A DNA stretch of 48,416 bases from SAR202 cluster bacterium AD-804-J14_MRT_500m. GTDB lineage: Bacteria > Chloroflexota > Dehalococcoidia > UBA3495 > GCA-2712585. Location: the NCBI GenBank assembly GCA_009391275.1, contig VEXF01000010.1:1-48416 (forward strand), given 5' to 3'. The translations under genes were made by a program, and so were the position numbers. The notes under the pieces are model-generated. The model was not told the DNA's origin and made no database searches. It was given only the letters and a program-made list of their open reading frames with translations. Each line of letters opens with the position of its first letter. The first letter of the stretch is position 1. Below, piece by piece: positions 42,871-44,049 of this stretch.

Positions 42871-43314
42871 GTGTCAACGAATCAACCGCTGGTTTGTCTG
42901 GCATCTTTATCACCTACGGTTGACACAGAATTAGTGATCTCCATAGACTACACAAACATATGCACGACAGGAGGATATCTGATACATTCAGATCCGGATG
43001 TCCCGGCTACATTAGGACAAATACAAGCCCTGCTACACACCCATTTCTCCGCGAACTCCTCGATTTCTTTGCTACGCGGATTTAAATTAAATTTTTCCGG
43101 AAACTCCGATTTTCATAAAGTCTATTTTTCAGTCAAATGCGACTGTGGAACTGCAGCGCTTATCTCAGTTGAGGTTTCCGCGTCAAAATCTCAAAGTGAA
43201 GTCTCAACCGCAATTCCAAACCTCATTGCCCAAGTCAAGTCTAAAGCCAAACAGTTCAACGCGATGACATGCAAAATGCATCTACAGATGCGATCGGGGA
43301 ACCTGGGAAAATAA
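42871..43314 (+). CDS. Hypothetical protein upstream of the selenoprotein pair
   Basis: 147 residues from GTG 42871; unrecognised. The body looks like a folded alpha/beta protein (LVISIDYTNICTTGGYLIH, HKVYFSVKCDCGTAALISVEV, IAQVKSKAKQFNAMTCKMH) with five cysteines, including a CDC. It has no signal peptide or membrane helix. It ends 46 bases before the FTR-like selenoprotein gene and is read in the same direction, so cotranscription is possible, though a -10-like box lies between them. Start codon uncertain. Confidence 0.6.
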   Translation: MSTNQPLVCLASLSPTVDTELVISIDYTNICTTGGYLIHSDPDVPATLGQIQALLHTHFSANSSISLLRGFKLNFSGNSDFHKVYFSVKCDCGTAALISVEVSASKSQSEVSTAIPNLIAQVKSKAKQFNAMTCKMHLQMRSGNLGK

Positions 43315-43360: not shown

Positions 43361-43798
43361 ATGGCGGGAGACAGGGAAATGAAAGGGGAACTTAGTCAAG
43401 ACGAGGCACTGAAAAGGGCTAAGCAATTTTCTGAAAAATATGTAGAGCGAAGCCCATATGCATTTTTCCCTGAGGCAGAAGTCGTTGAGCTAGTACAACA
43501 GGGATTGGGAGAAAATGAAGTCAAACATGGCTATAGATACTGCCCTTGAATGCCTCTAAGCGGCGATCCAGATGAGGATCGAAAAAAGATATGTCCCTGT
43601 GATCGGCATCATGAAGACATCAACAGGGATGGGTTTTGCATATGAATGTTTTTCGTAAGCGAAGAGTTTCTTCGTAAATATGAACAAGGCGAGGATTTAG
43701 TACAAACTATCGACGAGGTAGTACAACCAGGAGAAGGCCTTTTCGATCAAGAATACGAGACCAAGGCTCAATGGAAAGCCAAACAAAACAAGAAATAG
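43361..43798 (+). CDS. Ferredoxin-thioredoxin-reductase-type catalytic subunit, selenoprotein with two in-frame TGA (Sec63, Sec95)
   Basis: One frame runs from ATG 43361 to TAG 43796, interrupted only by TGA at 43547 (codon 63) and 43643 (codon 95). Read with Sec (U), the 145-residue product has CPU-x14-CPC-x12-CIU (Cys61, Sec63, Cys78, Cys80, Cys93, Sec95). FTR catalytic subunits have CPC-...-CPC-...-CHC; the first Cys of the first and third motifs and both of the second bind the 4Fe-4S cluster. The two remaining Cys form the redox disulfide, and exactly those two are TGA here. Sequence continues FTR-like between and after the TGAs (PLSGDPDEDRKKICPC; MFFVSEEFLRKYEQ). The enzyme would pass ferredoxin electrons to a thioredoxin or glutaredoxin. 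An ATG at 43379 is an alternative start. Confidence 0.9.
43564..43581 (+). promoter_or_regulatory. SECIS-like hairpin for Sec63 of the FTR gene
   Basis: Perfect 6-bp stem CGATCC-AGATGA-GGATCG beginning 14 bases after the TGA at 43547-43549. The 6-base loop has G at its second position and starts 20 bases after the TGA. This meets the usual bacterial SECIS criteria (short stem, G among the first two loop bases, loop 16-37 bases from UGA). Confidence 0.75.
43660..43674 (+). promoter_or_regulatory. SECIS-like hairpin for Sec95 of the FTR gene
   Basis: Stem CGAAG-AGTTT-CTTCG, 5 bp plus a flanking G-U pair, beginning 14 bases after the TGA at 43643-43645. The loop AGUUU has G second and starts 19 bases after the TGA, nearly the same geometry as the first element. 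Confidence 0.72.
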
Positions 43799-43809: not shown

Positions 43810-44049
43810 TTGAGTGACATAACAGTATATACGTCAGCTGGTTGAGGCCCTTGCCACATGGTGAAAGTGTACCTTTCACGCAAAGGCATACCGTTTACGG
43901 AACGCAATGTATCAAACGAAGAAGACGCTAAAAACGATTTAATAGCGCTAGGATACCGGAGTACGCCGGTTACGGTAATAGGCGACGAGAAATTAGTCGG
44001 ATACAGTCCTCCTAAGATCGACGCTGCCTTAGCAACCGTCGGCCTTTAG
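43810..44049 (+). CDS. Glutaredoxin-like selenoprotein with TGA-Gly-Pro-Cys active site (Sec12)
   Basis: Started at TTG 43810 (GGAG five bases upstream, 11 bases after the FTR stop), the frame gives a 79-residue glutaredoxin/NrdH-like protein with TGA at 43843-43845 as codon 12: ITVYTSAG-U-GPCHMVKVYL. The CxxC active site thus reads UxxC. Downstream hallmarks are intact: KGIPFTERNVS, the cis-Pro motif GYRSTPVTVIGDEKLVGYSPPKI, and a final helix. Starting at the first later ATG (43858) would remove strand 1 and the active site, so it is rejected. The likely partner is the FTR-type subunit just upstream, which would reduce its Sec-Cys bond. Sec-containing glutaredoxins are known from marine metagenomes. 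Confidence 0.9.
43861..43879 (+). promoter_or_regulatory. SECIS-like hairpin for Sec12 of the glutaredoxin gene
   Basis: Perfect 7-bp stem GTGAAAG-TGTAC-CTTTCAC beginning 15 bases after the TGA at 43843-43845. The loop UGUAC has G at position two and starts 22 bases after the TGA. Confidence 0.76.

Follow-up and report, generated by a model that had tools for sequence, protein, structure and literature searches.

A predicted double-selenocysteine ferredoxin-dependent disulfide reductase encoded next to a UGA-containing glutaredoxin in a SAR202 bacterium

The window, i.e., the whole stretch of DNA that was analyzed (48,416 nucleotides of contig VEXF01000010.1 from SAR202 cluster bacterium AD-804-J14_MRT_500m), contains the following features on its forward strand:

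42871..43314, + strand: gene X, 147 aa, no family match, invariant CxC ... CxxH; relatives lie upstream of FTR
43361..43798, + strand: catalytic chain of the ferredoxin-thioredoxin reductase/ferredoxin-dependent disulfide reductase (FTR/FDR) type, with predicted selenocysteines Sec63 and Sec95; two in-frame TGA codons and family scores
43547..43549, + strand: TGA codon 1 (codon 63), first redox position, motif CPU
43564..43581, + strand: SECIS-like stem-loop after TGA 1; 6-bp stem CGATCC/GGATCG, loop AGATGA
43643..43645, + strand: TGA codon 2 (codon 95), second redox position, motif CIU
43659..43675, + strand: SECIS-like stem-loop after TGA 2; 6-bp stem with outermost pair G-T, loop AGTTT
43810..44049, + strand: glutaredoxin resembling NrdH/YruB, 79 aa from a TTG start, with a UGPC motif; separated from the FTR stop by 11 bases
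43843..43845, + strand: TGA codon of the glutaredoxin (UGPC)
43861..43879, + strand: SECIS-like stem-loop after the glutaredoxin TGA; GTGAAAG-TGTAC-CTTTCAC, 7 bp

When TGA was read through, the frame at 43361–43798 comprised 145 residues, ended with TAG and displayed the motifs CPU, CPC, and CIU. It matched the Pfam family FeThRed_B (PF02943) with an E-value of 4.3e-23 (81.8 bits, cut-off 22) and passed the curated cut-off of 160 of the NCBIfam model NF041072, "FtrB family double-selenoprotein", with 227.2 bits. All eight PDB sequence matches (E up to 0.1) were FTR/FDR entries, and in three PDB alignments codon 63 was matched to the second Cys of CPC, and codon 95 to that of CHC or CYC. When TGA was written as Cys, positions 61, 63, 78, 80, 93, and 95 were invariant among 25 sequences, so that four further cysteines are retained alongside the two TGA codons. 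We take codons 63 and 95 to be the positions of the FTR redox disulfide, and the other four cysteines to be the 4Fe-4S ligands. The structure model (mean pLDDT 81) had 7pwe, 4tpu, 1dj7, 2pu9, 7bzk, and 2pvd as its top structural matches, all of them FTR/FDR; 7pwe and 4tpu alone reached E 0.001 or better.

A sequence-only reading had described this frame as an FTR-type subunit with TGA at both redox cysteines and all four cluster cysteines kept, and the translation, the PDB alignments, and the invariant positions bear this out. Alignment to FTR family members, which it had proposed, indeed places both TGA codons in redox Cys columns, and a standard ORF listing ends at codon 62, as it had anticipated for gene callers. 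Its FTR-like frame of 145 codons was confirmed in length and family, but the true start is probably the ATG at 43379 (139 aa), because P0003, the closest database homologue, begins there.

For comparison with relatives, GTDB genomes were scanned by an alignment in which both TGA sites were masked, yielding 63 loci, and three loci (L064–L066) were obtained from IMG/VR; together with the window this gave 67 loci. The GTDB loci were titled Chloroflexota, Chloroflexi, Dehalococcoidia, SAR202, or Anaerolineales. The redox codons were TGA/TGA in 63 of the 67 loci and TGA/TGC or TGA/TGT in three, and one locus had N there; since the search patterns were derived from this FTR family, the count is uninformative on other phyla. 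The TGA pair is therefore not a matter of chance, as the sequence-only reading had argued from the improbability of two random stops on these codons, and its proposal to look for U at the same columns in related genomes was answered by the same count.

The protein was conserved between and beyond both TGA codons across the loci, i.e., the opposite of a true stop followed by unconserved sequence, which that reading had named as a refutation. A decayed gene, in which the TGA codons would be real stops or sequencing errors, agrees with the halt of the standard ORF listing, but in view of this conservation and the sharing of both codons it is hardly credible.

The three IMG/VR contigs encode one identical double-Sec FTR protein and may be cellular sequence. 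An origin of the FTR in a phage or plasmid was considered and rejected: there was no match among phage records, and the one distant plasmid match (28.7%) was annotated without an internal stop.

Among 11 relatives in protein databases, nine (P0003–P0011) had W at both sites, and another ended at the first site. The remaining one, P0012, a metagenome fragment, has Ser at the first Sec position, which counts against selenocysteine there, and ends before the second. Taken at face value, the nine sequences would suggest that UGA encodes a different amino acid, e.g., Trp, with no selenium involved. Gene calls made with another genetic code do render TGA as W, and TGA is a normal stop as well: it ends 13 of the 34 long ORFs of the window, and in 14 of 66 loci it terminates the FTR gene. 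Homologues carry Cys at these positions, the stem-loops described below are constrained, and relatives possess SelA, SelB, SelD, and tRNA-Sec. The Trp reading was accordingly rejected as extremely improbable.

The selenocysteine machinery, which the sequence-only reading had proposed to look for, was found in the genomes of relatives. The tRNA-Sec model RF01852 matched all six whole genomes searched (those of L003, L009, L015, L017, L043, and L051) with 64–79 bits; this model is not specific alone, as it matched 14 of 14 controls, five of them above the cut-off. For this reason ARAGORN was added, and it reported tRNA-SeC(tca) in all four genomes given to it (four of the six best matches). SelA and SelB were above the cut-off in 7/7 genomes (the six and that of L062), and SelD, itself containing one TGA, was likewise present in all seven. 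Each of the six genomes had a single FTR match, in the form with two TGA codons, while G007, the genome of L062, carried one FTR with one TGA and one Cys FTR.

The three stems begin 14 or 16 nt 3′ of their TGA codons and enclose loops of 5–6 nt, with G as the second loop base in the three loops of the window and in all those listed among relatives. At the first site, the next outward pair is G-A in the window and is paired in most relatives. Among distinct sequences without N, excluding the three loci with a single TGA, all seven pairs formed in 41 of 56 at the first site, all six in 56 of 56 at the second, and all seven in 41 of 43 at the glutaredoxin site. The three single-TGA loci formed 6, 7, and 7 of the seven pairs at the first site, and 2, 4, and 1 of six at the second, where they encode Cys.

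Folding energy was evaluated by synonymous-codon resampling (60 draws each) in 61 distinct double-TGA sequences. It was unusually low after both codons, with a mean z of −1.54 after TGA 1 and −1.43 after TGA 2; away from these two peaks, the mean z was −0.74 or weaker. The single-TGA loci, a small sample of three with an additional dip around offset −30, showed the first folding peak only.

The codons within the stems were frozen. In counts that include some identical copies, CTT was used in 61/61 cases against 17% expected, AGC in 58/60 against 22%, TCA in 46/46 against 14%, and a further CTT in 45/45 against 18%. Compensating changes on both sides of a stem were few: the first stem had none, the second two, and the glutaredoxin stem one. 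The case for the stem-loops thus rests on the frozen codons and not on covariation. On these grounds, selenocysteine at both redox positions of the FTR-type enzyme is a strongly supported prediction.

The protein encoded downstream met the cut-off of the Pfam Glutaredoxin family (52.9 against 22.9). It resembles the NrdH and YruB glutaredoxins (TIGR02194 and TIGR02196; PDB 7c10 and 4hs1), but differs from them in its UGPC motif and does not reach the curated cut-offs of these families, scoring 60.8 where 85.75 is required and 72.3 where 88.55 is required. A UGPC glutaredoxin accompanied the FTR in 46 of the 67 loci, in 45 of them downstream on the same strand and in L009 on the other strand. 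By a stricter count it lay downstream in 44 of 66 loci, and in 41 of those 44 its start, as assigned by rule, was at most 123 nt from the FTR stop.

Eighteen loci had a double-Sec FTR without an adjacent UGPC glutaredoxin (L014, L025, L032, L046–L048, L050–L058, and L064–L066), although for L032 only 856 bases of sequence were available downstream of the FTR. Five genomes without an adjacent copy were searched for glutaredoxin relatives: there were none at E 1e-6 in G006 and G012, only weaker ones in G097 and G036, and a close one elsewhere in the genome in G300.

Forty-four of the 66 other loci had a relative of gene X upstream of the FTR. It was present in 42 of the 44 loci with a downstream glutaredoxin, and among the 22 without one in L009 and L014 only; these loci are related by descent and do not represent 44 independent cases. 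Seven residues were invariant among 34 sequences (C90, C92, E101, K106, F129, C134, and H137). Neither Pfam nor NCBIfam yielded a match to gene X at E 0.01, and its AlphaFold model (mean pLDDT 80) matched no fold in the PDB with an E-value of 0.001 or better. Gene X might conceivably encode a target or accessory protein of the relay proposed below. The sequence-only reading, upheld as regards Sec at both sites, had mentioned neither the neighboring UGA glutaredoxin nor this conserved upstream gene.

Of 294 genomes sampled from the class to which G001 belongs, 152 had an FTR match. The states of the redox pair were read from 42 hand-picked stretches together with the FTR loci, so the counts are not frequencies; among the 42, L072 repeats L062, and the proteins of L110–L112 are identical to those of L032, L057, and L047. 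Within Chloroflexota, the pair was found as CC, CU, UC, and UU. The CC state was represented by 15 sequences and CU by 14 classic-type FTRs and eight FTR-rubredoxin fusions; UC comprised FTR-glutaredoxin fusions (four including the repeat), and two rows were not scored. The UC loci were titled Anaerolineales or Chloroflexota and may lie outside the class of G001, so the phylum is the safe scope for the four states.

In L061–L063, the FTR has TGA at its first site alone and is followed by a C-terminal glutaredoxin-like domain; the domain scan was run on L072, which repeats the gene of L062. In loci L073–L092, L108, and L109, only the second redox position is TGA; the classic type reads CHU, and the FTR-rubredoxin fusions read CYU.

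A quick tree was computed from 61 of 99 distinct rows, with UU thinned to 21; it is based on few columns and its deep forks are weak. In this tree, the UU group formed one branch (support 96), which the UC group joined with support 82; CU fell into two far-apart groups. By this sequence comparison, the CU forms likely had separate origins.

The PDB entries closest to the FTR of the window contain Cys at both aligned redox positions. The best PDB sequence match (E 4.5e-14) was 4tpu from Methanosarcina acetivorans, titled ferredoxin-dependent disulfide reductase with rubredoxin as the molecule name; because of this name, 4tpu is probably a rubredoxin fusion like the FTR-rubredoxin fusions of Chloroflexota. 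The second best, 7pwe, a Grx/FDR fusion of Desulfotalea psychrophila, also ranked first in the structural comparison with the FTR model (E 5.5e-5). It likewise pairs a glutaredoxin with an FDR, but as a single polypeptide.

Plant and cyanobacterial FTR (1dj7, 2pu9, and 7bzk) belong to the same catalytic-chain family, with 7bzk showing a CPC/CPC/CHC layout and Cys at both redox sites where Sec is predicted in the window. These plant and cyanobacterial enzymes have an alpha chain. In contrast, the FTR alpha family (PF02941) had no match in any of the seven genomes of relatives, and a control search matched Synechococcus only; this absence fits the alpha-less FDR type.

The frame at 43361–43798 thus probably encodes a double-Sec ferredoxin-dependent disulfide reductase, as predicted above, that likely passes electrons to the adjacent UGA glutaredoxin. 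The glutaredoxin is proposed as partner because of the gene order, the FTR-glutaredoxin fusions L061–L063, and the Cys-type fusion 7pwe. In such a relay, reduced ferredoxin would reduce the 4Fe-4S cluster by one electron per step, and the cluster together with Sec95 would open a diselenide or selenenylsulfide. Sec63 would then attack the oxidized UGPC site of the glutaredoxin, which in turn would reduce targets in the cell.

The main partner could instead be an ordinary thioredoxin or another target, with the glutaredoxin merely co-regulated. Classic FTRs reduce thioredoxin, as stated in PMC2398784, and thioredoxin may be a partner here because thioredoxin-reductase-like proteins occur in six of the seven genomes of relatives, in three of them above the cut-off. 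The 18 loci without an adjacent glutaredoxin point in the same direction, and six of seven such loci in the tree branch deeper than those bearing one.

In G006, the genome of L051 and one of the two without a glutaredoxin match at E 1e-6, a search for thioredoxin reductase (TIGR01292) was also negative at E 1e-20, and the double-Sec FTR may therefore serve there as the principal disulfide reductase. Set against thioredoxin as main partner are the recurrence of the FTR-glutaredoxin pair in 46/67 loci, the fusion of a related Sec-FTR to a glutaredoxin-like domain, and the identity of the best structural match as a Grx/FDR fusion. This alternative was considered rather unlikely, and the adjacent glutaredoxin remained the preferred electron acceptor.

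The double-Sec FTR is not new as a kind. It was predicted in 2008 by Zhang and Gladyshev, who placed the two Sec of their sequence exactly at the positions of the redox-active Cys pair (PMC2398784). FTR is listed as a selenoprotein in a 2022 review (PMC9312934), and a 2026 review lists FTR with two Sec (PMC13188914). The protein of PMC2398784 and the model NF041072 represent the same family with the same two Sec positions as the FTR of the window. The copy in the window differs in adjoining a UGPC glutaredoxin and gene X, no neighbor or partner being described in the passages of that paper that were consulted. The claim of the sequence-only reading that no characterized example is known fits the literature found, but its view of the enzyme as novel must be qualified by the 2008 prediction and the dedicated NCBIfam model.

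The pair of FTR and selenoglutaredoxin, gene X, and the four-state series were not found in the open-access literature searched, and the operon section of PMC13188914 makes no mention of the pair. On balance, we lean towards a relay of three selenium atoms, leading from a diselenide 4Fe-4S reductase to a dedicated UGPC selenoglutaredoxin, in which gene X would be the third partner, in a phylum where the reductase pair would have shifted between sulfur and selenium one position at a time (CC, CU, UC, UU).

A diselenide beside a 4Fe-4S cluster, if true, would be unusual redox chemistry, and the set of CC, CU, UC, and UU enzymes offers a ready-made series for asking what selenium does at each redox residue. 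The linked glutaredoxin gives the FTR a named, testable partner. This selenoglutaredoxin is hidden in public data: of the 156 database relatives found, 120 were listed, and 116 of these start downstream of the UGPC motif and thus past the active site (114 by rule and two by eye); WGPC was present in four, and CGPC in none. Another glutaredoxin-like frame, distinct from the UGPC glutaredoxin and containing TGA within the motif NPGUFSC, was observed on the minus strand at L002:4814–5038, L003:3239–3454, L008:4787–5011, and L010:2744–2968.
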